IMG/VR virus record: IMGVR_UViG_3300010371_000109
Location: 1 to 25,100 of that record
Reading direction: 5' to 3' (one strand)
From: a virus
DNA: 25,100 nucleotides
The notes under the pieces are model-generated. The model ran no database searches, had not been told where the DNA came from, and worked only from the letters and a program-made list of their open reading frames with translations. Both the position numbers and the translations under genes were made by a program. Shown piece by piece: positions 1 through 18,312 of this stretch (the first letter of the stretch is position 1; every line of letters starts with the position of its first letter).

Positions 1-318
1 ACAGCCTATCCGACCCCGGCGACCAGCGCCGGGGGAAATGTCTCTGGGACGATCGCCTCGACCGGGGCTTTTCAGAAGCTCTGGGGGGCGACTGGAGGCT
101 CTGCCGGGCCGTTTCGGAAAGGCTGTACGATTCAGAACAACGGCACGCATAATATGAATGTGAGTGAGGGGTTGGGGGTTGCTGGAAGCACAACCGGGAA
201 CTCGGTGGTGGTGCCTGCCGGGGGGATCTATTATTGCCAGGTCGGGCAAATTGTGTTGACTGGGGAAATTGATATCACTGGGACCGCCACCGATGCGTTT
301 TATGCGGCGCAGTATTAA
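1..318 (+). CDS. C-terminal part of a phage tail/fibre-type protein (5' end outside window)
   Basis: An open frame runs from the first base to a TAA at 316-318 and gives 105 residues without a start, so the gene begins upstream of the window. The product is rich in Gly, Ser, Thr and Val and ends in short beta-strand-like stretches (for example NSVVVPAGGIYYCQVGQIV, then DITGTATDAFYAAQY). This resembles the C-terminal beta domains of phage tail or decoration proteins, but no family can be named. Codon use (many GGG) matches the tail genes that follow. Its end overlaps the start of the spike gene by 26 bases in another frame, which suggests translational coupling. The function is inferred from position and composition only. 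Confidence 0.6.
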   Translation, partial: TAYPTPATSAGGNVSGTIASTGAFQKLWGATGGSAGPFRKGCTIQNNGTHNMNVSEGLGVAGSTTGNSVVVPAGGIYYCQVGQIVLTGEIDITGTATDAFYAAQY

Positions 319-3300
319 CGCACTCGCACTCGCGCTTGCGCTTGGGCTTGGGCTGGGGTTGTTGGGGCTTGGAGCCGAGGCTTCCGCCCAAACCCCCAGC
401 CCACAGTGCGTAGCCAGCGCACTCGCTGGAGGCACCGTCAACGCGATCACAATTCCGGCGCTGCCCTGTACCGGGACTTCCGCGCTGGTGCTGGTGACCG
501 CCGCTGGGGCCAACACCGGGGCCGTGACGCTGCAGCAGATTGGCCAGCCGGCGCTGGCGGTGACCAAGCTGGGTGGGGCGGCCTTGGTAGCTGGGGATAT
601 CCCGATCGCTGGGGCGGTGATGCTGCTGCAAGCGACCGGGCAGCAGTGGGTGCTGTTGAACCCAGGAACCACCGGGGGTGTTGGGGTTGTACCGACCGTT
701 GCGGCGTTGCGGGGGTTGACCGCTGGCGCGGCCTCGACTGCTGTGACACAGGGGTATAATAGCGCTGGGGACGGTGGCGGCGCAACTTATCAATGGGCCA
801 GCGGCTCCAGTTGCACCGACGACTCGGTGACTTGCATCCGGCCGAACTCGGCACCGGTGACTGGTCGCTGGCTGGGGGTGTTTCCGTCAGGGGCGGTGAA
901 TCTGTATCAGGCTGGGCTGGTGCCTAGCAGCAGCACTGCTGACGATGCCTCTGGGCTGATGAATGCGATCTGGACGGCCGGGCTGAGCGTCTACGTGCCG
1001 CCGGGTGAGTGGCACATTAAAAACCAGCTGTTGTGCAAGGCTGGGCTGGAGTTGGAGGGGGCGGGACAGTTTGCCTCGATCATCACCATCGGCGCGGCGA
1101 CGAATGATTTCAACCTCTCCGCGAGCAGCGTGCTGCAAGCTGGGACGTATGGGAACAACGGGTGTCAGATCGACGGGGTGAAGCTTCAGTTCTATCAGCC
1201 GTCATTCGGCGGGATGACGATCGCGAATATTGTGCATTACCCGGTGGCGATTGATGGAGGAAACTCGACGGCCAGCGGAAATTGGATCTACGGCGGGTCG
1301 ATTGGGACTGGGAGTCCGGTCCAGATCACCAATGCCTGGACCTGTGTTTCGCTGAACAACACTCAGGCGCTGGGAGAGGGAGCTTGGCATCTGGGGAATG
1401 TCAACTGTAGTGATTATGCTGGAGGGCTGACGCTCGGTGGGGTGATCTCGACGATCTGGGTGGCAAACTGGGACGAGGAAACCTTCGGGATGACCTCGGA
1501 CCAAGCGCTGGTGTATGAGTCCCAGGGAGAGAGCGGAGCTGCACTGGCGGTCCAGATTGGACGCTGTGATGGATGCTCGTTTGGGACATTTGCGACTTTC
1601 GCGCATGGGTTTAAACAGCTGGATTCCGGGGCGACGCGTGGGCCGGCGACTGATATCACCGGGGTTAATGTGGGAGTGCTGGAACTGGATGGTGACGGTG
1701 CAACGCTGATTAATGGCGGAGGGTATGTCCGGGTAGGGGCGCTCTACGGGACGAATAGCTCAGCTGACACGGCAGGGAAAATCAAGTCGAACCCAGGGGC
1801 TGGGCTATATGCCTATACAACTATCGCCACGCTCGGAGTGACCGATGGTGCTCCGAGCGGAGATATCGCAACCAGCGGGGCTGGAGTGACCGTGCTTACG
1901 CTGGGTTCCGGCTGGTACGAATCCCTCACGACGAACTCTGGAGCGAGTCCTTGGAACTTTGCCGGCAGCAACGTGACGGTGGTGGTTGGGGGGATCAACT
2001 ATATTGATCCAGGTGGAGAGACCGTTCCGCAGATCGTCGCAAACTGCACCTGCACGGTGAAATTTACTGGGACGAGCTTCACCGTTCCGAATAGCAATCG
2101 CAGTGCGGCAGTTGTAAGCCAGGCTGGGACCGGGACTAATCTGGTCATGCAGGGGGTGAGCTTTACCCCGGGGACCTCCACTGGAAATGTGATCGTGGTT
2201 GGGAGTGATAATGTTGGGAATTTCCTAGGTAGCATCTCCGCACACGGTTGGGGAACGAGTCTTGCTGGAACAAATAATGGAATTTACTGGCTCAATGAGA
2301 GTGTTAATAAATTAAACGTAAATCAAGGCGTGACAGGAAATGTACAGGGACATGTCGCAACGCTGGCAGCACTACAAGATTCGTGTTTCAGCGCGACGGG
2401 CTGCACGCTTGGCGCAGGCGGCGGTATTTTCTCGGATCCCAACCGGGTGGTACGTCGTGACGATTACAGCGCCGGTCTCGGCGCGCCCGCTCTCGATTTT
2501 AAGGGCGAGACGGGAACGTGTGCTGCGAACGGCCATATCGGCGCGACCCTCGCGACTTCCTCTATCAGCGGCACGACTCTGACTGTTGGCAGTGTCTCGG
2601 CAGGGACGATCGCTAGTGGGCAGTTCATCGATGGCGTAGCAGCCGGAACACAAATTACCGCCGGATCGGGTTCTTCGTGGACCGTGAGCGTGTCGCAGAC
2701 CGTTGCGTCACAGACGCTGAATACCTCCGATCACGGCTCTTGTGTCAACACGACGAGCGGAGATGGCAACAGCTTCTATGCAGTTTTTGCATCCTCTGGC
2801 GCGGATATGCGCGAGTGGGGCTGTAAGGCAGACGGGGGCACGACCGATAATGGCCCGTGTATTCGTAACGCAGCGGCATGGGGGGCGGCGTACGGCACTC
2901 CTCTTCTTTTGCCAGCGGCTAGCAGTTCTTACACCATCAATACTCTGGACGGGTCGGCTGATGCCGCGCTGGTGATTGGTGATGGTACTTGTTTGGGGAA
3001 TACCAAACCGGCGCCTACGATCATAGGCTCGGCCTCGAGCGACTACCCGGATGCCTATTACAACTCGCCAGAAATTACCCTTGGGAATGGGCTGAACCGG
3101 CCTATCGTCTTTGTTCGCAAATGCGCGTCAAGCCCCTTTTTCCAAAATCTTGATTTCGAGGGGAACCGCGCTGGTCAAACTGGCTGCACGACAGCGGCAT
3201 ATTGTCCGAGCGGCCTTCTTTTCGTTATCGTGGCAGAGGATTTTGCCAGCCCCTCGACAGAAAGCTCTATCGCCGCTGATCGAGTTGTTATTCGTGGCGG

Positions 3301-4567
3301 CTATAACGGAGATCTCTATATTGGGGGCGGGCGCGGCACCACTTGGCTCAAAGATACGTGGCTTCAATATAGCGGCCAATCGACCGCAGATTCAGCCCTT
3401 TATCTCAATGGGTTTGATGGGACGTTTGACAATCTCCAAGTAGGGTCGAATGCCGGGAGCGGGATTCTGGTCAACGAGGGCAGCCAATACCAATTCGCGA
3501 ATGGTGCGGTCTTTTTGAATGGTGCTCAGGGGATCATCATAAACGGGGGCAGCGTCGGCAACATATCCTCCGTGAACCTTATGCTTCAGCGCAACGGCAA
3601 AGAAGGCATCAAAGTCCTCGACGCCGCCGTTCCTGCCAACGATAACGTTGGATCGTGGAATTTCGTAGGAACGCAGTTCAACAACAATTCGCAGTCGCAA
3701 ACTGGCGCCTTTTCCGATGTAAACGACCTATGCACGGCGGCGCATTGCGGAGCCGCGATGCATCTTGACCATCCTGGCATGTATGGAGGCGACCAAAGCG
3801 TCGACGCGACCGGAACCGGAGGCACAAGCGGCAGCAGCACTACTCTTACGCTCTCGGGCGCCCCCACAGGCACTGTAAACGTTGGCGACGGCATTTCATA
3901 TTCCGGCAGCCCTGCTGGTCTCTATGTGACGGCCTACAACTCGGGTACGCACGTCATCACGATGTCGGCGGCGGAGACCATCGCGGGCGGCACATCGATT
4001 ACGATCACGGCCCCCCTCCCGAATTACCATATCCAGACCAACAGCACCGCGAAAGTCTATGTGACTGCGCCTGGGTTTGGCACTGGCACCAACGCCGTGA
4101 CGGGCTTTACGGACGATTTCATTCTCGTCAACGGCGACTATTCGATCTTGGCACCATACACGATGGGGCTGTATGGGAGCGGAAGCGGCTCGACGCAAGT
4201 CACTTATCAGAGCGGCTATCCCGTAGGCACTTTAGACAGGCACGGCAATCACATCACAGTGAGCGAAACCGTCCAGTGGACGAGCCTCAACAGTATCACC
4301 GGCAATCTGATCGGACAGTTCCTTCCAGTAGCATCCACGAGCACGAGTAGTAACTACACAGCGGCATGCTCTCTTGGTGTTGTCAATGGATGGACCGATG
4401 GGGCCGGGGGATTTACGCAGCTAGATGCGATAATCACCAGCAACGATCAGACTGTATTTTTCGGGAAGACGGGCAGCGGAAAGAACTGGACACAAACGCC
4501 GGTCACAGAGTGGGGGGCTACGGGGAAAATATCATATACCTGTTCCTACGATGCGGATGCCTTCTGA
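293..4567 (+). CDS. large tailspike with signal peptide and two pectate-lyase-like beta-helix regions
   Basis: This 1424-residue protein is a likely receptor-binding or polysaccharide-degrading tailspike. The first ~32 residues look like a Sec signal peptide: MRFMRRS, an Ala/Leu/Gly core (ALALALALGLGLGLLGLG), then a probable AEASA cleavage site. Residues ~38-125 resemble a small fibre domain (NAITIPALP, NTGAVTL, GGAALVAGDIPIAGAVML, QQWVLLNPG). A spike-entry region follows (TVAALRGL, YNSAGDGGGATYQW) and leads into a first beta-helix from ~205 (VYVPPGEWHIKNQLLCKAG). A second entry motif, EWGCKADGGTTDNGPCIRNA, lies near residue 835 and starts a second beta-helix. Between them (~760-812) and again at ~1175-1240 sit small SGTTLTVGSVSAGT-type repeats. 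ATG 293 has GGGA nine bases upstream; ATG 302 and TTG 269 are alternatives. Codon use shifts near 2330. The enzyme activity is not established. Confidence 0.85.
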   Translation: MRFMRRSINALALALALGLGLGLLGLGAEASAQTPSPQCVASALAGGTVNAITIPALPCTGTSALVLVTAAGANTGAVTLQQIGQPALAVTKLGGAALVAGDIPIAGAVMLLQATGQQWVLLNPGTTGGVGVVPTVAALRGLTAGAASTAVTQGYNSAGDGGGATYQWASGSSCTDDSVTCIRPNSAPVTGRWLGVFPSGAVNLYQAGLVPSSSTADDASGLMNAIWTAGLSVYVPPGEWHIKNQLLCKAGLELEGAGQFASIITIGAATNDFNLSASSVLQAGTYGNNGCQIDGVKLQFYQPSFGGMTIANIVHYPVAIDGGNSTASGNWIYGGSIGTGSPVQITNAWTCVSLNNTQALGEGAWHLGNVNCSDYAGGLTLGGVISTIWVANWDEETFGMTSDQALVYESQGESGAALAVQIGRCDGCSFGTFATFAHGFKQLDSGATRGPATDITGVNVGVLELDGDGATLINGGGYVRVGALYGTNSSADTAGKIKSNPGAGLYAYTTIATLGVTDGAPSGDIATSGAGVTVLTLGSGWYESLTTNSGASPWNFAGSNVTVVVGGINYIDPGGETVPQIVANCTCTVKFTGTSFTVPNSNRSAAVVSQAGTGTNLVMQGVSFTPGTSTGNVIVVGSDNVGNFLGSISAHGWGTSLAGTNNGIYWLNESVNKLNVNQGVTGNVQGHVATLAALQDSCFSATGCTLGAGGGIFSDPNRVVRRDDYSAGLGAPALDFKGETGTCAANGHIGATLATSSISGTTLTVGSVSAGTIASGQFIDGVAAGTQITAGSGSSWTVSVSQTVASQTLNTSDHGSCVNTTSGDGNSFYAVFASSGADMREWGCKADGGTTDNGPCIRNAAAWGAAYGTPLLLPAASSSYTINTLDGSADAALVIGDGTCLGNTKPAPTIIGSASSDYPDAYYNSPEITLGNGLNRPIVFVRKCASSPFFQNLDFEGNRAGQTGCTTAAYCPSGLLFVIVAEDFASPSTESSIAADRVVIRGGYNGDLYIGGGRGTTWLKDTWLQYSGQSTADSALYLNGFDGTFDNLQVGSNAGSGILVNEGSQYQFANGAVFLNGAQGIIINGGSVGNISSVNLMLQRNGKEGIKVLDAAVPANDNVGSWNFVGTQFNNNSQSQTGAFSDVNDLCTAAHCGAAMHLDHPGMYGGDQSVDATGTGGTSGSSTTLTLSGAPTGTVNVGDGISYSGSPAGLYVTAYNSGTHVITMSAAETIAGGTSITITAPLPNYHIQTNSTAKVYVTAPGFGTGTNAVTGFTDDFILVNGDYSILAPYTMGLYGSGSGSTQVTYQSGYPVGTLDRHGNHITVSETVQWTSLNSITGNLIGQFLPVASTSTSSNYTAACSLGVVNGWTDGAGGFTQLDAIITSNDQTVFFGKTGSGKNWTQTPVTEWGATGKISYTCSYDADAF
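319..367 (+). repeat. hexamer-based imperfect tandem repeat encoding the signal-peptide core
   Basis: Degenerate six-base units of the form GC[A/G]CT[C/T], then GGGCTT and GGGCTG, run through this stretch and encode the alternating Ala-Leu then Gly-Leu hydrophobic core of the spike signal peptide. The repeat is seen directly. Slippage in multiples of six would lengthen or shorten the hydrophobic core without shifting the frame. Confidence 0.55.
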
Positions 4568-9024: not shown

Positions 9025-11277
9025 GTGGCTGGTGATCCGCGTCCAGGAGTCGAACAACTCACCGGGGATCCGGTGGTGGATGAAGCCACGACTTTTTTCA
9101 ATCATGTGGCAGAGTATGAGGCCGACTGGCGCACGAGGTTTATTGAAGATATTCGGTTTGAGAACGGGGACTCGACGAACTACTATCAGTGGCCGGATCA
9201 GCTGCGCAACGCGCGGAGTGCGGACAACAAGCCCTGTCTGACCATGAATATGATCCGACAGCATAATCTGTTAATCTCCAATCAGCTACGGAAGAACAAA
9301 TCCTCGCCGAAGGTTATCGCGATGGGAGGTCAGGCAACGCAAGAGTCTGCCTCTATGATGAAGGCTCTGATTCGGCATATCGAGTACCAGTCTGATGCGC
9401 AGGACGCCTATACTGTTGGCCGGAGCTTCCAGATCGGCGGGGGTATTGGCTGGGTGCGGTTGGTTACCGACTGGGTTCCGGGGACATTCGAGCAGGAGAT
9501 CTACATCCGGCCGATTTTGGACCCACTCACGGTCTTTATTGACCCTAATTGCAGGCAGAAGTTCACCAAGTCCGACGCGAAGCGCGCGATTGTCTTCGAC
9601 ACACTCCCGGTGGATGAGTTCCTGGAGGCATTTCCGGAGGCCGAGGACTGTGTGGGACTCCAGCCGCTGGGGGTTGGAACGACTGATGGGGATTTGATTT
9701 CCAAGGATCAGGTTCGAGTAGCGGAGTATTTCCGCCGGGTGACCCGACGGGATCGGCTGATCAGCTTTGTCCATGAGGGAAAGCGGAGGAGCATCCGAGA
9801 GTCCATGCTCTCTGGGCAAATCGGCCGGATGATTCTCGACGACCCGTTGACTAAAGTCCGAACGGTTATGGATGAGGTGGTGGAGTGGAAGCTGATTGCC
9901 GGGAGCCGAGTGATTGACGAGACTGTCTGGCCAGGAGAGTGGATTCCGCTGATTCCGTTCCTGGGCGAGGAGACCGTCATCGATGGTCGGTTGGATCGCA
10001 AGGGTCACACTCGGGCGATGAAGGATGCACAGCGGATGTATAACTACGCCGCGAGTGCTAGTGTGGAGGTGGTAGCAACTCAGACCAAGACTCCTTGGGT
10101 CGCGTCCGCTCGTGCCATCGAGGGTCATGAAGTCCAGTGGAACTCGGCCAACACGCAGAACGCGAGTGTTTTGGTCTGGAACGATGTGGATGAGGACAAC
10201 CCGGACACAAAGATCGATAAGCCCGAGCGTATTCCTCCACCAGTAGCAAGTCAGGGCTTTGAGACCGCAATGGTAACAGCCCAGCAGCAGATGATGCTTA
10301 CCTCGGGGCAATATCAGAACGCGCTGGGACAGCTGGGAAACGAGCGAACTGGAAAGGCCATTACTGCTCGGCAAGAGCAGAGCGACACCCAGGTTTTCCA
10401 TTTCCAAGACAACTACGAGTCCGGGCTGAAGTTCCTTTGCAAGCAGATCATCGGAGTGATTCCGAAGGTCTACGACACGCAAAGGGTGGTGAAAATCCAG
10501 GCGGAAGATGGGACGGATCTGGAAATCGAGATCGATCCTGGCGCACGGCTAGCGTACTTGCAGGAGGTCGGGCATCAAGGAGAGGTGGCGCGGAGGATTT
10601 TCAACCCAGCTCTCGGCCGGTACGACATTGCTGCAGATGTGGGGCCGGCCTATACCAGTCGCCGCCAAGAGACTCTCGACGCGCTGACGCTGATCTTGAC
10701 CCAGGCCCCTGGGCTGGTCGGGATTATCGGGGACTTGCTGTTCAAGAACATGGAGTTCGACGACGCGATGGAAGCAGCACAGCGCCTGCGTCGGATGGTT
10801 CCGCCGGAAGCTCTTGGTCAAGGCCCTACCCCGGCTGAGCAGCAACTGCAAGCCCAGGTGGCGGCGCTGGGAGGCCAGCTGACCAAGCTCTACGAGACTG
10901 CTGGGAAAGACAAGATCAAGCTGATCGGAAAGGATCAGATGAGGGAGATTGATGTTTACAAGGCCGAGACAGATCGGATGAAAGCCCTGGCAGATGTGCT
11001 TCCCCTCGACCAGCCAGGGCTGGAGCAGCTTGTGGGACAGCTGGTTCAAGAGGCCCTCAAGACCAGCTTGGTGCCGATATTGAAAGAAAATCTTGGAAAC
11101 GACGAGGGAAGCGTGACTGGTGATCTCCCCCAGGCCGAGGCTGAAGCCCCTCCGATCCCTGGTGCTCGTCGGGCTCCTGACAACAACTGGTATCTGGCCG
11201 ATCCGACCAGGACCGGGAAATATCTCCGAGTTGGTCCACTCGCTCAACAGCGGGGTACCCCGCAGCGGGAGGCTTGA
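9025..11277 (+). CDS. portal protein, P22 gp1-like
   Basis: This 750-residue protein forms the dodecameric DNA entry ring. It matches the P22-type portal layout: an N-terminal segment with FFNHVAEYEADWRTRFIEDIRFENGD, QWPDQLRNAR and PCLTMNMIRQHNLLISNQLR, then GGGIGWVRLVTDW, DPLTVFIDPNC and SDAKRAIVFDTLP. A long helical and Gln-rich C-terminal part (AEQQLQAQVAALGGQLTKLY) could form the barrel. The length fits the family (P22 portal is about 725 residues). GTG 9025 is chosen because GGAG lies ten bases upstream, whereas ATG 9018 meets a stop after five codons. It lies 15 bases after terminase and 1 base before the lysozyme-like gene, the standard packaging gene order. Confidence 0.95.
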   Translation: MAGDPRPGVEQLTGDPVVDEATTFFNHVAEYEADWRTRFIEDIRFENGDSTNYYQWPDQLRNARSADNKPCLTMNMIRQHNLLISNQLRKNKSSPKVIAMGGQATQESASMMKALIRHIEYQSDAQDAYTVGRSFQIGGGIGWVRLVTDWVPGTFEQEIYIRPILDPLTVFIDPNCRQKFTKSDAKRAIVFDTLPVDEFLEAFPEAEDCVGLQPLGVGTTDGDLISKDQVRVAEYFRRVTRRDRLISFVHEGKRRSIRESMLSGQIGRMILDDPLTKVRTVMDEVVEWKLIAGSRVIDETVWPGEWIPLIPFLGEETVIDGRLDRKGHTRAMKDAQRMYNYAASASVEVVATQTKTPWVASARAIEGHEVQWNSANTQNASVLVWNDVDEDNPDTKIDKPERIPPPVASQGFETAMVTAQQQMMLTSGQYQNALGQLGNERTGKAITARQEQSDTQVFHFQDNYESGLKFLCKQIIGVIPKVYDTQRVVKIQAEDGTDLEIEIDPGARLAYLQEVGHQGEVARRIFNPALGRYDIAADVGPAYTSRRQETLDALTLILTQAPGLVGIIGDLLFKNMEFDDAMEAAQRLRRMVPPEALGQGPTPAEQQLQAQVAALGGQLTKLYETAGKDKIKLIGKDQMREIDVYKAETDRMKALADVLPLDQPGLEQLVGQLVQEALKTSLVPILKENLGNDEGSVTGDLPQAEAEAPPIPGARRAPDNNWYLADPTRTGKYLRVGPLAQQRGTPQREA
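11267..11272 (+). promoter_or_regulatory. Shine-Dalgarno GGGAGG deciding the GTG 11279 start
   Basis: GGGAGG lies inside the last codons of the portal gene, six bases before GTG 11279. It fixes a GTG start for the next gene in preference to the long open frame that extends back into the portal gene. Confidence 0.6.
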
Positions 11278-11278
11278 G

Positions 11279-12133
11279 GTGGCAGAGCCAATGATGATTT
11301 CTGGGCTTTGGCCGAATGTACAGCCGGAACTGAGCGATCCCTGGGCCGACAATCCGTATATTGTCGGTCCTGTTCCAAGTCCAAATGAACATCTACCTGA
11401 TCCAACAACTCTTACTGGGAGAGCAACGCAGCCTGTGCCTGGACCGGGGGCGGGGATAGTTGGTTCTGGCTATACTGGACCTGGGACCTCGCCAGTAGCC
11501 CCGACACTCCAGGGCCTGGACCCCAGGATTCCGGTGCAGCGGGAGTCCCGAGGTATGCCGTATGTGGGATATACCTCACCGGAAACGTTCCGCCGGACAG
11601 GACAGTTTACCGACCTCCGTGATGCTCCGGTGGATGAAACTGGAGCACCGATCTGGGCTGGGGATATGGGGCCAGCGGGGAGATCAACGGCTTTCGGCCC
11701 GGCGCAAATTACACGCTCGACCTGGGCACCGATTGCGCGAAAGCTGGGGATCACCGACTGGCGCGCGCCTGGGGCCTACGCGGCTGTTGCGAATGAACTG
11801 TATCGGGAAGCTGGGTCTGCGCCTTGGAGGGCGAGTGCCCCTGGTGGAGGGCAGGCGCCAGTTCCAGGTCCAGCCGGAACCCAACTCGCCTATGCAGGGG
11901 CGCCAGCGCTTGCGCTCCCGGCAAATGCCCCACCTCCGCCGTTGCCGGAGCCGACTCAGGTCCAGCCGGGATTGCCAAACCTGGGCTTGGCGCTGCTAGG
12001 TGGGCTGCTGCGCGGGGTGAAATTCACTCCGGTTAGCTATGACCCCTGGAAGATTTACAAGCTGGGGGAAAACCCAGTGGGAGCCCCGACGTATCGGTTG
12101 GGGAGTATCGGGGGAGGGCAGGCCGGTGGCTGA
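11279..12133 (+). CDS. virion lysozyme/transglycosylase-like protein
   Basis: This 284-residue protein is predicted to cut peptidoglycan during DNA entry. Residues ~1-80 are Pro/Gly-rich linker. The core at ~83-180 has VQRESRGMPYVGY, where Glu89 is the candidate acid, then AGDMGPAGRSTAFGPAQIT and STWAPIARKLGITDWRAPG, followed by AVANELYREAG. This is the familiar order E-S-x-G, then G/A-F-G-x-x-Q-I-T-x-x-T-W, seen in lysozyme-like and soluble-transglycosylase-like domains. A Pro-rich C-terminal tail follows. The open frame reaches back into the portal gene, but GTG 11279 with GGGAGG six bases upstream is clearly better. No signal peptide is present, which fits a virion component rather than a secreted endolysin. 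The next gene overlaps it by eight bases. Confidence 0.65.
   Translation: MAEPMMISGLWPNVQPELSDPWADNPYIVGPVPSPNEHLPDPTTLTGRATQPVPGPGAGIVGSGYTGPGTSPVAPTLQGLDPRIPVQRESRGMPYVGYTSPETFRRTGQFTDLRDAPVDETGAPIWAGDMGPAGRSTAFGPAQITRSTWAPIARKLGITDWRAPGAYAAVANELYREAGSAPWRASAPGGGQAPVPGPAGTQLAYAGAPALALPANAPPPPLPEPTQVQPGLPNLGLALLGGLLRGVKFTPVSYDPWKIYKLGENPVGAPTYRLGSIGGGQAGG
12113..12117 (+). promoter_or_regulatory. Shine-Dalgarno GGAGG deciding the GTG 12126 start
   Basis: GGAGG, eight bases before GTG 12126, lies inside the end of the lysozyme-like gene. It selects this GTG over the longer frame that begins at 12039. Confidence 0.6.
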
Positions 12134-13487
12134 GCAGAGCAGCGTTCCGCAGGCAGAGGGTCCGCTGGGGCTGGATCTGTCCCCGGTAACCCCGGCTGAG
12201 CATTTGCTCTCCGCTGCACTAGCCCCGGGTGGAGAGCTTTACCAGCCCAGGCCAGAGGGATTGTTTGGACATTTACTGCAGACCGCGATTGAGCCCCTCC
12301 AGGCGGCGCCGGCAGCTGCCCAGGGGACCCTAGCCGATAGGCTGGCCGGGCTGGGGAATATCGTGATCCCGTATGTTGTTGGGGGCGCTCCGCGTGATGC
12401 ACTCAGCGCTGGGGTAAAGCTCTCGACCGGAGACCTGGGTGGCTATCACGGCACGCCACATACGTTTGCACCGGAGCCTGGTGCGCCTTTCGGGTCGTTT
12501 CGTAACGAGGCGATTGGAAGTGGAGAGGGCGCGCAGGCGTATGGCTGGGGGCACTATATTGCGGGGAATCCAAAGATCGCGGAGGCGTATCAACAAGCGC
12601 TGGCTGGAGAACCAGTTGTAACCATTGACGGAATAAATGCTTTTGAACACCCAGACGTAAATGCTAATAATCCACATATTCAAATGGCTATAAATGAAAT
12701 AAATGCAGCTGGAAATGTAGGTGATGCGATTAAACAGATTGACAATCATATTAATTATCTGTCAACCCCTAGTCATCCCAATGCTAATAATTACGGTGTT
12801 TTCGATTCTGAAATTCAAAGACTTAAAGATGCAAAGAATTGGATTTCGTCTAACAGAAACAGCCTGGAAATGCAACCAGCTGGCCATCTCCTCGAAGTCC
12901 ACATTCTCCCGGAGGAATCTCAGCTGCTCGACTGGGACAAACCACTGAGCGAGCAGAGCCCGGAGGTGCAGGTGAAACTTGCTCCAATTTGGCAAGAGGT
13001 ACAAGGTGAATCCAGTCTTTCTCGTGGCGGTTCCTTGTATACAAAAGATCCAGATCCAGCTGGATCGCAGCTTTATCGTCAGCTTTGGCGTATTTCAAGA
13101 ACAGATTCTGATTTAGGACAAGATGCTTATCGGCGTCTACAGCAATTTGGTCGCGGAGATCAAGCCGTTTCTCAGGTCTTCCACTCCGCCGGAATTCCTG
13201 GGCTGAAGTATCTGGACGCGGGGAGCCGGAACATTTCCGTTGCTCCGCTTGAAGGTCCATCTGGTGCTGGATCCTGGCAGGTCTTTAATAATTCCAGAAT
13301 CAATCGAGCTGGTGAAGGGCAGTTGCTTTCCAGCCATCCGACCCAAGCTGAGGCAGAGGCTGCTGCTGATCGATTACGCACACACAACTACGTAATTTTC
13401 CACCCGTCCAACCTCCGCATCGTCGCGCGCGACGGGACTCCCCTCACCCCCGTCGATCACGACCCGTTTGCCGAAGGCGCTCCTTGA
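12126..13487 (+). CDS. polyvalent virion protein with ADP-ribosyltransferase/PARP-like signature
   Basis: This protein is 453 residues long. Residues 107-112 read YHGTPH, followed by GSGEGAQAYGWGHYIA and NPKIAEAY (~131-155). This H-G-T, then G-x-G-x-Y-x-A, then A-x-x-Y order is the layout of the H-Y-E class of ADP-ribosyltransferases such as PARPs. Later motifs are LLDWDKPLSEQSPEV (267-281), GIPGLKYLDAGSR (356-368) and NYVIFHPSNLRIV (421-433). All are typical of ART-like domains in large polyvalent proteins of phages and conjugative elements (Iyer, Aravind and colleagues). His108 and Tyr144 are candidate NAD-binding residues; the third catalytic residue is not assigned. An AT-rich, Asn-rich insert lies at ~165-245. 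Starting at GTG 12126 with GGAGG eight bases upstream, it overlaps the lysozyme-like gene. Placement among virion genes suggests packaging and injection (inference). Confidence 0.7.
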   Translation: MAEQSSVPQAEGPLGLDLSPVTPAEHLLSAALAPGGELYQPRPEGLFGHLLQTAIEPLQAAPAAAQGTLADRLAGLGNIVIPYVVGGAPRDALSAGVKLSTGDLGGYHGTPHTFAPEPGAPFGSFRNEAIGSGEGAQAYGWGHYIAGNPKIAEAYQQALAGEPVVTIDGINAFEHPDVNANNPHIQMAINEINAAGNVGDAIKQIDNHINYLSTPSHPNANNYGVFDSEIQRLKDAKNWISSNRNSLEMQPAGHLLEVHILPEESQLLDWDKPLSEQSPEVQVKLAPIWQEVQGESSLSRGGSLYTKDPDPAGSQLYRQLWRISRTDSDLGQDAYRRLQQFGRGDQAVSQVFHSAGIPGLKYLDAGSRNISVAPLEGPSGAGSWQVFNNSRINRAGEGQLLSSHPTQAEAEAAADRLRTHNYVIFHPSNLRIVARDGTPLTPVDHDPFAEGAP

Positions 13488-13775: not shown

Positions 13776-14171
13776 ATGGGACAGAATAAGCCGCAGGCTC
13801 AGCCGCAGGCTCAGCCGCAAGTGCTCCGCTCGGGCGATCCGATTGCTCACTTGGCCGTTGCCAAAATTGCTCGGGAAGCTGCGGCTGAGCTCTACGAGAC
13901 CTTGATGGGTGATAATCAGCTCCGCGCCGAGTGGCTCCGGCAGCACCCCGGGAAGACTGAGAAGCAGCTGCTGGTGCTGTTCGTGCGAAAACACTGGGGA
14001 AAGTGCATACCGTTCGCCCGGGCCACGATGGCACGAATGTTGGACAGTCCACTACCGCCCCACTTGAAAGATGAAATCCTAGATGCTCTAATCAAGGACC
14101 GATCGCTGCGACCACTGGAAGCCTCCAAGGCCCCAGCAGCGGTGATACTGAATCGAGAGGCGCTAAGGTGA
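13776..14171 (+). CDS. unknown phage protein, 131 residues, between membrane protein and scaffold
   Basis: ATG 13776 has GGAGG eight bases upstream, inside the preceding gene's end. The N terminus is a PQAQPQAQPQ repeat, and the rest is helical with HLAVAKIAREAAAELYETLM, LRAEWLRQHPGKTEKQL and FVRKHWGKCIPFARATMARML. It looks soluble, with no signal or membrane segment. The family is not recognised. Position upstream of scaffold and the GTGA overlap with it suggest a role in head assembly, but this is context only. Confidence 0.7.
   Translation: MGQNKPQAQPQAQPQVLRSGDPIAHLAVAKIAREAAAELYETLMGDNQLRAEWLRQHPGKTEKQLLVLFVRKHWGKCIPFARATMARMLDSPLPPHLKDEILDALIKDRSLRPLEASKAPAAVILNREALR
13791..13820 (+). 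repeat. 12-bp tandem repeat encoding PQAQ units
   Basis: CCGCAGGCTCAG occurs twice in direct tandem (13791-13802 and 13803-13814), followed by a partial third unit, CCGCAA. It encodes the Pro-Gln-Ala-Gln N terminus of the unknown protein. Unit length is a multiple of three, so copy changes stay in frame. Confidence 0.7.
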
Positions 14172-15058
14172 CAGCAGTGTGGCAGCAGAATTGGTGGGAG
14201 CTTGAGTGGATTTGCCCGGTCCAGGCTGGAATCACCATGATGGCTGGAGAGCCGGAGCCAGACCCTGAGCCTGGGGCGGGGGCAGAGCCAGCAGCCCAGG
14301 CGATCCCGGCCGATCCACAGCCGCAAGCCGATGATTCAGATCCCCAACCGCAGCCGGACCCGCCCGCACCCCCGCAGACCACAAAGCCAGCTGGAGATGA
14401 GTGGTGGCAGCGGAGGATCAACAAGCTTACTGCCAAAGCCAAAGCGTTGGAGGCAGAGAACGCCCAGCTGAAGCAAGCCCCCGCAACGCCCCCTATTCCG
14501 CCGGCTCATGTCCCAGGCGCTGTCCCCGGATCGCCTGAGTACCAAGAGGCCGTGCGTGCGGAAGCCCGAGCACTCGCCGCCAAAGATCGTTTCGATCAAC
14601 AGTGTGCGGATATTGCTACCGCCGGCCAGGAAGCCTTTGGAAAGGACGCGTTCGACCGGAGCGTGATGGGACTGGTAAACCTGGTTGATCGGTCGGACCC
14701 GGAAGAAATTGGACAGTACCGATCTCTGATCGAGGCTGCGATTTCAACCGGAGAGGCTCCTCGGCTGGTGCATCTGCTGGGCTCTGATCCTAATGAGGCT
14801 ACTCGACTGCTTGCCCTTCCGCCGGCCAGGATGGGAGTTGAACTCGCGAAGCTCGTGCTGACCCAGCCGGACCGGACAGTTTCCGGGGCACCCAAGCCAG
14901 CAAGTGTTCCCCGAGGCTCCGGCGGTGGCCAAGCCCCGCACACCAGCATTGATCCGACGGACCCGGAGCGGAGCGATAGGCTTTCAACTGCCGAGTGGAT
15001 GCGGAGGAGAAACGAACAGTCGTCCAGGTGGGATAATCAACCGAGGGGCGGGCGATGA
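14168..15058 (+). CDS. capsid scaffolding protein
   Basis: This product has up to 296 residues. It has an acidic Pro/Gln-rich N-terminal part (EPDPEPGAGAEP, DPQPQADDSDPQPQ), then a predicted coiled coil (WWQRRINKLTAKAKALEAEN), helical segments with EYQEAVRAEARALAAKDRF, and a C terminus with DPTDPERSDRLSTAEWMRRR. The acidic head, coiled middle and basic EWM-type tail, directly before coat, are hallmarks of podoviral scaffolding proteins, which template the procapsid and then leave. GTG 14168 has GAGAGG seven bases upstream and overlaps the previous stop as GTGA. ATG 14237 would remove an odd Trp-rich leader (VWQQNWWELEWI) and is a real alternative. The next gene starts in its stop codon (ATGA). 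Confidence 0.85.
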   Translation: MTAVWQQNWWELEWICPVQAGITMMAGEPEPDPEPGAGAEPAAQAIPADPQPQADDSDPQPQPDPPAPPQTTKPAGDEWWQRRINKLTAKAKALEAENAQLKQAPATPPIPPAHVPGAVPGSPEYQEAVRAEARALAAKDRFDQQCADIATAGQEAFGKDAFDRSVMGLVNLVDRSDPEEIGQYRSLIEAAISTGEAPRLVHLLGSDPNEATRLLALPPARMGVELAKLVLTQPDRTVSGAPKPASVPRGSGGGQAPHTSIDPTDPERSDRLSTAEWMRRRNEQSSRWDNQPRGGR

Positions 15059-15456: not shown

Positions 15457-15603
15457 CTTGAAGTTTTCCCCTTCTGATGCTGGGGTAAATCGCATCTGCC
15501 GGCGACTGGGCGCTTAATCCCTGGACGGAGTTCACTGGGCTGACTCCAGCCTAAACGACGGCAAAGGTATGGAGACCTGTTGCCGATATCTGGAGCCAAT
15601 AAG

Positions 15604-16827
15604 ATGGCCGATGCGTTACTTACCATCAACATGATTACTCGAGAGGCTGTGCGCCTCTGGAAAAACACCAACGCTTTTCTGCAGAACGTGGACATGCAGT
15701 ACGACTCCAGCTTTGCCGTCACCGGCGCGAAGATCGGGTCGAGCCTCCGCATTCGTCTGCCCAACGACTTCACCGTAACGACCGGCCCGGCGCTCTCTGT
15801 CCAGGACACGGCGGAGCAGTCAACCACCCTGGTGCTGGCTACCCAGAAGCACGTGGACGTGTCGTACTCAACGGCCGATCGCACGCTGAGCCTGGACGAT
15901 TACTCCCGCCGGGTGCTCGCCCCGATGGTAAACAACCTCGCCGGTGCGGTCGCGGTGGATATTATGTCCGGGAGCGAGGGCGGGATTTCCAACTTCGTCG
16001 CGAACCAGGATGTGAACAATAATATTCTCTCCCCGATTGCATCCACCTATTTGAACTCCGGGGCGAGCCTGGACCTGCAATCTGCTCCGATCGCCAATCG
16101 GAAGATTGTCAACAGCCCCCGGACCGAGGCCCGAGTGGTGAGCGCGCTCAGCGGATTGCTGAACCCTGGGAGCGAGATCAGCCGCCAGTACGTTACCGGG
16201 CGGATGTACGATGCGCTTGGGTTTATCTGGATGAAAGACCAGACCGCGATTGTCCATACCACCGGGACGCTGGCTCAAGGTTCTGCCACTGTCAACGGGG
16301 CGAACCAGACCGGACTCAGCCTTGTTGTGAATGCCCTTGCTGGGAGTCTCAACGTCGGAGATATTATCACCATCGCTGGCGTGAACGCTGTCAACCGAAT
16401 CACCAAGCAGTCCACCGGAGAACTGATGCAGTTTGCTGTCACGTCAAATGTGGCGGTGAATGCGACGGTGATTCCAATCTACCCGGCGATTGTTCCGGCC
16501 AGCGGCGGACAGGCTGTCCAGTATCAGACGGTCACGGCGTCTCCGGCAAGCGGTGCTGCAGTCAATCCCAGCAACGGGCTGGCTGCCAGCACGGCTTATC
16601 GGAAGAACTTCGCGTTCGCTCCAGAAGCGGTTACGCTGGCCACGGCGGACCTTGAGATGCCGCACAACGTCCATGAGGCTGCGAGAGAAGAGTTCGACGG
16701 GGTGAGCATGAGGATGGTGACTGACTATTTCATCGGAACCGATCAGCTTATCACCCGGCTTGATGTTCTCTATGGGTATCTCTGGATTCGTCCCGAATGG
16801 GCCTGCGTTGTGGCTGATGTAGTGTAG
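15604..16827 (+). CDS. major capsid protein, P22 coat gp5-like
   Basis: This 407-residue protein forms the shell. The N terminus MADALLTINMITREAVRLWKN, then NVDMQYDSSFAVTGAKIGSS, RIRLPNDFTVTTGPALSVQD, TTLVLATQKHVDVSYSTADR and LSLDDYSRRVLAPMVNNLAG matches the gp5-type coat layout point by point, with an HK97 fold known for that family. Middle residues carry an insertion-like beta region (GTLAQGSATVNGANQTGLSLV, ITIAGVNAVNRIT). ATG 15604 is chosen because GGAG sits nine bases upstream; TTG 15580 would add eight residues. It follows scaffold with one gene between, as expected for a P22-like head operon. Confidence 0.93.
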   Translation: MADALLTINMITREAVRLWKNTNAFLQNVDMQYDSSFAVTGAKIGSSLRIRLPNDFTVTTGPALSVQDTAEQSTTLVLATQKHVDVSYSTADRTLSLDDYSRRVLAPMVNNLAGAVAVDIMSGSEGGISNFVANQDVNNNILSPIASTYLNSGASLDLQSAPIANRKIVNSPRTEARVVSALSGLLNPGSEISRQYVTGRMYDALGFIWMKDQTAIVHTTGTLAQGSATVNGANQTGLSLVVNALAGSLNVGDIITIAGVNAVNRITKQSTGELMQFAVTSNVAVNATVIPIYPAIVPASGGQAVQYQTVTASPASGAAVNPSNGLAASTAYRKNFAFAPEAVTLATADLEMPHNVHEAAREEFDGVSMRMVTDYFIGTDQLITRLDVLYGYLWIRPEWACVVADVV

Positions 16828-18033: not shown

Positions 18034-18312
18034 ATGGAAACAATTGGTTGGGCAGTAAAACAGATGCACGACGGAGCGCGAGTACGTCGTGCTGGCTGGA
18101 ACGGGAAAGATATGTTTCTTTTCCTTGTGCCTGGTTCGCGATTTCAAGTAAATCGTGCTCCGTTACTGGGGATTTATCCCGAGGGAACAGAGATCGACTA
18201 TCACCCTCACGTGGACATGAAAACTGCACAAGGCTATGTGGTTCCGTGGCTGTGCTCGCAAGCAGATTTGCTTGCAACTGACTGGGAACTTGCTGACGAG
18301 GAGCCGGGCTAA
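18034..18312 (+). CDS. tad2: Tad2-like (DUF2829) anti-Thoeris protein
   Basis: This 92-residue protein matches the DUF2829/Tad2 family along nearly its whole length. In order: IGWAVKQMHDGARVRRAGWNG (residues ~4-24), KDMFLFLVPGSRFQVNRAPL, LGIYPEGTEIDYHPHVDMKT, and VVPWLCSQADLLATDWEL near the end. The R-x-G-W-N-G, FLVPGS, VNR-x-P-L, IYPEGTEI and VPWL-x-S-x-x-DLL-x-x-DW blocks are the family hallmarks, and the usual length is about 90 residues. Characterised Tad2 proteins bind and sequester the cyclic ADP-ribose-type signal of Thoeris defence, so the host effector is not activated. AGGAG lies five bases before ATG 18034. It sits in the accessory cluster behind the coat gene and overlaps the next gene as TAATG. 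Confidence 0.88.
   Translation: METIGWAVKQMHDGARVRRAGWNGKDMFLFLVPGSRFQVNRAPLLGIYPEGTEIDYHPHVDMKTAQGYVVPWLCSQADLLATDWELADEEPG

Follow-up and report, generated by a model that had tools for sequence, protein, structure and literature searches.

An ADP-ribosyltransferase-fold protein with an H-Y-N site and a candidate virion-loading tag in a P22-type podovirus

A 25,100-nt stretch of viral DNA (positions 1 to 25,100 of IMG/VR record IMGVR_UViG_3300010371_000109), referred to throughout as the window, carries a gene on the + strand at 12126..13487. Its 453-amino acid (aa) product appears, from its sequence and structure models, to be an ADP-ribosyltransferase (ART)-fold protein with an unusual H-Y-N site. 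The protein ends LTPVDHDPFAEGAP, with the peptide PVDHDPF (13449..13469, +) placed five residues before the end. We consider it probable that this protein is internal virion cargo of a P22-type podovirus, made up of an ART-fold domain and a C-terminal loading tag, that is injected with the DNA and acts on a host target. ARTs packaged in phage heads have been predicted for years; to our knowledge, the route by which small enzymes enter podovirus heads is mostly unknown.

The 453-aa protein carries a diverged ART domain

A preliminary description, made from the sequence alone, had proposed a fold like that of poly(ADP-ribose) polymerases (PARPs) on the basis of a series of short motifs. All of these are present at the positions given in the frame 12126-13487, which is open: YHGT (residues 107-110), GWGHYIA (with Y144), NPKIAEAY, LLDWDKPLSEQ, GIPGLKYLD and NYVIF (421-425). 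Judged on the sequence, these blocks are far beyond chance. Direct searches with the protein found nothing significant in Pfam, PHROG or the PDB, and PF18760 (ART-PolyVal) did not match it at E <= 1. The relatives found by tblastn and pattern scans include phiGT1_5, Methanomicrobiales virus vir555, Tunturi_5 and hundreds of IMG/VR contigs (at least 590 confirmed candidates), and a profile built from eight relatives, without the window protein, recovers the 453-aa protein at E 3.8e-39. The suggested relationship to the ARTs of polyvalent proteins is borne out by 91 aligned homologues, of which 84 match PF18760 at E <= 0.01, mostly over the N-terminal half and under the curated cut-off (20-30 bits, compared with 31.2).

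The proposed fold was also upheld by structure prediction, the check named for it. An AlphaFold2 model of the window protein, made with relatives, has a confident core at residues 100-440 (predicted local distance difference test, pLDDT, ~90), and its best structural match is chain B of PDB entry 9k3a, the pre-ejectosome of cyanophage A4 (155 residues, Z 10.3); PARP-2 (Z 6.2) and Pseudomonas exotoxin A (Z 5.7) come next. Foldseek with the full window model gave no match at E <= 1e-3 and many helical look-alikes to the insert at residues 160-250; a shorter relative was therefore used. This relative, which lacks the long helical insert, yielded a better domain model (pLDDT 90; predicted template modelling score, pTM, 0.83). 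It again matched 9k3a_B first (Z 10.1) and then PARP-1/PARP, tankyrases, diphtheria toxin, SAIP and ParT (Z 7.7-8.5); all of the listed matches below the top were ARTs. Foldseek with the same model returned 9k3a_B at E 1.8e-4 and 43 viral models in BFVD at E <= 1e-3, many of them named ART-PolyVal-like. HIV gp41 constructs that appeared at ~1e-3 in a PDB profile search were rejected as spurious matches through the low-complexity middle region. On the sequence motifs and models together, the 453-aa protein holds a diverged ART domain at residues ~104-435 (12435..13430, +).

Chain B of 9k3a is identical over 1717 aa to gp27 of Anabaena phage A-4L, and the matching part reads LYHGT...GTYFS. A podovirus pre-ejectosome is thus known to contain a relative of the ART fold. 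Like the window protein, gp27 has the H and Y and belongs to a podovirus virion or ejectosome; unlike it, gp27 is a 1717-aa ejection protein with no sequence match to it at E <= 10, another third residue and no PVDHDPF tag that we noticed. The comparison with ART-PolyVal (PF18760; Iyer et al. 2017, PMC5512222) is similarly mixed. The YHG[ST] and YG.GxYFA blocks and the late-gene or head context in phages are shared, whereas the window protein shows one recognisable domain in 453 aa, rather than at least two effector domains joined in a single large protein, and would be a stand-alone cargo with a terminal tag instead of part of a giant polyvalent protein.

An insertion of ~40 residues, weakly DUF2188-like, lies between GSRN and NYVIF. 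The helical insert at residues ~160-250 is encoded by an A-rich stretch at 12600-12880 with lower guanine-cytosine (GC) content than its GC-rich flanks, and this stretch may be a recent insertion.

An Asn stands at the third catalytic position

Among 91 aligned homologues, H108 (12447-12449) is conserved in 89, Y144 (12555-12557) in all 91, Y155 in 90 and D364 in 86, and the third motif, THNYVIF, has Asn421 (13386-13388) in 90. In the window model H108 and Y144 fall in predicted strands 104-110 and 143-146, and GxGEGxQ, YLD and SR are nearly invariant among the relatives. The third motif of PARPs reads NE(Y/F)IVY; from this motif and the end points of the structural alignment, residue 421 would correspond to the catalytic Glu545 of PARP-2 if the alignment is gapless. 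An H-Y-D site has been described for polyvalent ARTs (PMC5512222), and H-Y-[EDQ] for the corresponding type of viral ART (PMC9503650). The window protein has the H and Y, with Asn421 where the latter clade has Glu, Asp or Gln; D364, in the preceding strand, could be the residue meant in the H-Y-D description. The third motif of A-4L gp27, read by eye, is TTLVIN, also without Glu.

These observations bear on the consumption of nicotinamide adenine dinucleotide (NAD) that had been ascribed to the gene, a claim that goes too far as stated, with Asn in place of the Glu or Asp of PARPs, exotoxin A and the described polyvalent ARTs. Being invariant, Asn421 is no product of random drift, yet it is not the classic acid. 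It could mean that the ART fold has been kept and ADP-ribosyl transfer lost, leaving a structural or NAD- or ligand-binding module of an ejection complex. The prevalence of Asn421 favors this explanation, as does a best structural match that is itself part of a pre-ejectosome and lacks the Glu. However, the H, the Y, the GxGEGxQ loop, YLD and SR are kept over very diverged sequences and architectures and resemble an active or ligand site, and PARPs without Glu are still able to mono-ADP-ribosylate. We therefore regard loss of transfer as possible, at clearly less than even likelihood. With Asn as the third catalytic residue, we would give active ADP-ribosyl transfer by the window protein no more than about even odds, provided that the rest of our reading is right.

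The gene occupies a slot with exchangeable contents

Pfam and PHROG searches of the window proteins identified the gene neighborhood as that of a P22-type podovirus, in the order portal, lysozyme-like, ART, two small open reading frames (ORFs), scaffold and coat. The P22-type portal protein (9025..11277, +; PF16510, E 9e-138; phrog_156) is followed by the lysozyme-like gene (11291..12133, +), in which a transglycosylase-like motif, ESRG...GPAQIT, was read by eye and for which a Pfam search gave no match. Downstream, the slot is bounded by the scaffold gene (14168..15058, +; phrog_8865, E 7e-9), and the major capsid protein of the P22 coat type lies at 15580..16827 (+; PF11651, E 1.7e-34; phrog_283). 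The gene had been placed between the lysozyme-like gene and the scaffold; these neighbors are correct, except that the two small ORFs intervene before the scaffold.

An equivalent place is taken in phiGT1 by a stand-alone relative, which follows the portal and a structural protein and precedes a small gene and the scaffold, and a portal, ART domain and coat are co-located in many IMG/VR contigs. ARTs near portals were noted earlier in general terms (PMC9503650). Stand-alone ART copies beside portal genes are therefore common and already described in this general way, and the window ART is a further, diverged member of the described kind. The nearest portal relatives of the window (51-56% identity) hold other cargo in the slot: a transglycosylase (SLT) with an LPD23/zincin-like HExxH protein after it in locus L093, VanY and a lysozyme in L094, and two zincin-like proteins in L095. 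The slot of L182 holds ARTs, as does that of the more distant L202, where three stand in tandem; some slots in portal relatives hold short proteins only.

A terminal peptide is shared by unrelated slot proteins

The C-terminal PVDHDPF of the ART protein, overlooked in the preliminary description together with the third catalytic residue, Asn421, and the ~40-residue insertion, has counterparts in other occupants of the slot. The window lysozyme-like protein carries TPVSYDPW 27 residues before its end (variant tag PVSYDPW, 12029..12049, +), and the slot proteins of relatives have PIDYDPW... (L093 SLT), PVEHNPFGEQP (L093 zincin), PVDHDPFKDSGQ (L202 ARTs) and PVDHDPFA (L195) at their ends; a version of the peptide is also terminal in VanY. 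A relaxed form of the tag was found within the last 90 residues of 17/30 slot proteins, as compared with a mean of 0.02 and a maximum of 1 in 2000 shuffled runs. The strict form, PV[DE][HY]DPF, occurred 6 and 7 times in two sets of loci that were tag-blind, while 200 permuted motifs occurred at most 0 and 1 times. These shuffles and permuted motifs rule out a chance origin.

The exact peptide is present in at least 119 IMG/VR stretches, with ~20 estimated by chance for the whole collection, and among the matches listed it is terminal in 76/81 ORFs (~23 expected if evenly placed), often in tandem at the N terminus, for example MPDLIPVDHDPFAPPSLIPVDHDPFDPE. Its 95 occurrences are encoded by 70 different DNA spellings, and it is therefore the peptide and not the DNA that is conserved; a DNA-level cause, such as a ribosome site or a recombination site, is thereby ruled out. 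The tag carriers belong to effector and wall-enzyme types, with these domains assigned among 61 proteins: ART-PolyVal (11), DUF7178 (7), Hydrolase_2 (4), WHH nuclease (3), InPase (2) and LPD23 (2), with GNAT, colicin-DNase and histidine phosphatase once each. PHROG matches add tagged endolysins, DarB-like antirestriction proteins and minor head proteins. Among bacterial genomes, those of Bradyrhizobium, Methylobacterium, Mesorhizobium and Ancylobacter account for most finds of LVPVDHDPF, and here too it usually lies near the N terminus.

From these distributions we infer that PVDHDPF is a virion-loading tag. The sequence comparisons further indicate that the portal-scaffold slot is a cargo bay, whose occupants are swapped between phages while the terminal tag is kept. 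Packaging and injection, as originally proposed for the ART protein, are thus better supported by sequence than the preliminary description could show, though indirectly, through the slot, the swapped cargo, the shared tag and the pre-ejectosome match. It is unlikely, in our estimation, that the ART protein is instead an unpackaged effector made in the infected cell, with its gene merely lying within the late operon. In favor of this alternative, packaging is deduced here from the genes, and the authors of a 2022 survey leave open that such ARTs protect packaging components (PMC9503650). Such an effector, however, would share its slot and terminal tag with wall-degrading enzymes, which act from the virion in other podoviruses, and its closest solved relative sits in a pre-ejectosome.

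Two further groups of proteins were seen among the tagged records. A family in L256, L257, L266, L276, L283, L292, L293, L300, L310 and L324 opens DLGDYDVxPVEGNPFGSMASSPNDYDVxPVDHDPF; its members are 780-1220 aa where complete, on contigs of up to 78 kb. In L382, L399, L383 and L401, tagged or neighboring proteins open with (V/I)EFPxGTSxEEMTTALRKHYG or IIEFEGQRHEFPDDFTQADI; this may be a second module for N-terminal targeting in phage virion proteins.

The tag often occurs with a conserved portal tail

The gene just before a tagged gene usually encodes a portal ending APDGxxYVPDPxRPGKYLxV, even when the body of that portal has diverged too far for a match with the window portal. The window version of this tail is DNNWYLADPTRTGKYLRV (11179..11232, +). 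Among 70 tagged ORFs, 48 have the tail upstream within 6 kb and 39 immediately upstream. The bearers belong to several portal families (phrog_156, phrog_1216 and phrog_12082, of P22 and SU10 types), and some match phrog_332. The association of tag and tail was seen in both tag-blind sets, with the two-by-two tables [[3,1],[0,152]] and [[9,0],[6,74]], in tests uncorrected for shared descent. The exceptions were mostly variants missed by the strict patterns (the tail APDGFWYHPDSANPGKYLQV in L087 and the tags PVDYNPY in L178 and RVDYDPF in L180), and L184 has a degenerate trace only. Among 59-62 homologous portals without the tail, none has a tagged neighbor. In L202 (11219-11923), a GNAT-like acetyltransferase gene overlaps the end of the portal gene, with PVDHDPF before it, and ends with a second copy of the tail, DGxWYxPxPxRPGKYLxV; the three tandem tagged ARTs come next.

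We propose that the ART cargo would be made late, with the portal, scaffold and coat, and would enter the procapsid via its tag, which would probably dock either to the portal or to a different protein with the APDGxxYVPDPxRPGKYLxV tail, as co-occurrence and gene adjacency suggest. The docking site may be the interior of the portal, toward which the C-terminal barrel of the P22 portal is directed (PMC4992974). At infection the cargo would leave with or before the DNA, and in the cell it would most likely bind NAD and ADP-ribosylate or otherwise modify a host target, given the fold, His108 and Tyr144. Tentatively, and with somewhat less than even confidence, we extend this to a general, transferable docking code, of which PV[DE][HY]DPF and APDGxxYVPDPxRPGKYLxV would be the two halves and by which many phages would load assorted enzymes, this ART included, at the portal so that they are injected before the DNA.

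Several points weigh against the cargo reading. Packaging, binding and chemistry are read here from sequence and models, the better model of the ART domain is that of a small relative and not of the window protein, Asn421 takes the place of the catalytic acid, and shared descent may contribute to the uncorrected tag-tail tests. Most stand-alone ARTs of this family, phiGT1_5 included, lack the tag. In Pseudanabaena phage Pam5 the tail is on the tail lysozyme beside the tagged protein and not on the portal. When the whole records of 14 tagged loci initially without a tail were searched, the tail pattern was found in 1/14, which implies that the tail can be dispensed with or takes a divergent form; nor was the pattern found in the searched records of the DLGDYDV family described above.

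The tagged records without a detected tail and the Pam5 lysozyme would also fit a different role for PVDHDPF, in which it marks proteins for a maturation protease, for the scaffold or coat, or for a host factor after injection, and co-occurs with the tail through shared ancestry. A terminal position suits any binding peptide. Such a role is a serious possibility, falling somewhat short of an even chance; it is countered by the presence of tail and tag in neighboring genes across different portal families and by the tail-less homologous portals, which have no tagged neighbor.

Gene starts and other features of the window

The GTG at 12126 is preceded by a ribosome-binding-like GGGGGAGGG ~7 nt upstream and overlaps the stop of the preceding gene, as is usual. 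An ATG at 12039, which would give 482 aa, was rejected as the start; GTG 12126 alone has the GGGGGAGGG site and the usual overlap. For the lysozyme-like gene, the mechanical ORF begins at 11120, and the ATG at 11291 is the likelier start.

Megablast of the whole window against phages gave no match. A 1432-aa ORF at 269-4567 (+), without a Pfam match, opens the window. A Tad2-like anti-Thoeris gene lies amid the structural genes (18034-18312, +; PF11195, E 2.8e-23). The preliminary description had joined it to the ART gene as one of two NAD-related activities; the gene is real, and the link amounts to co-occurrence in one genome. Overall, that description was right on the fold, probably right on packaging and overextended on NAD consumption.

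Implications for the loading of phage effectors

T4 Alt is loaded by means of an N-terminal capsid targeting sequence, which is cleaved. The route proposed for the window ART, with packaging in the head, injection and action at the start of infection, resembles that of Alt, but Alt belongs to the R-S-E clade (PMC5512222) and the window ART is of the H-Y-x type, with a C-terminal peptide rather than an N-terminal sequence as its candidate signal. By analogy only, the tag can also be compared with encapsulin cargo-loading peptides and the T4 capsid targeting sequence, in which unrelated proteins bear a short peptide at one end that guides them into an HK97-fold shell. PVDHDPF differs from these in being unrelated in sequence, in occurring at the N or C terminus, often in tandem, and in its link to a conserved portal tail.

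As far as can be seen, neither the portal tail nor the terminal tag that these proteins share has been described, and the two are the part of these findings most worth following. VDHDPF, VEHDPF and VDYDPF were not found in the literature text searched, which is weak evidence of novelty, as logos and supplements were outside the search. If the tag is a loading signal, it would provide a rule by which effectors injected by phages could be predicted from sequence in genomes without annotation, a testable role for unknown proteins adjoining portals, and a short peptide for bringing proteins of choice into phage particles. The question of chemistry would likewise become sharper, since an H-Y-N site kept in some ninety diverged relatives calls for a direct NAD test.
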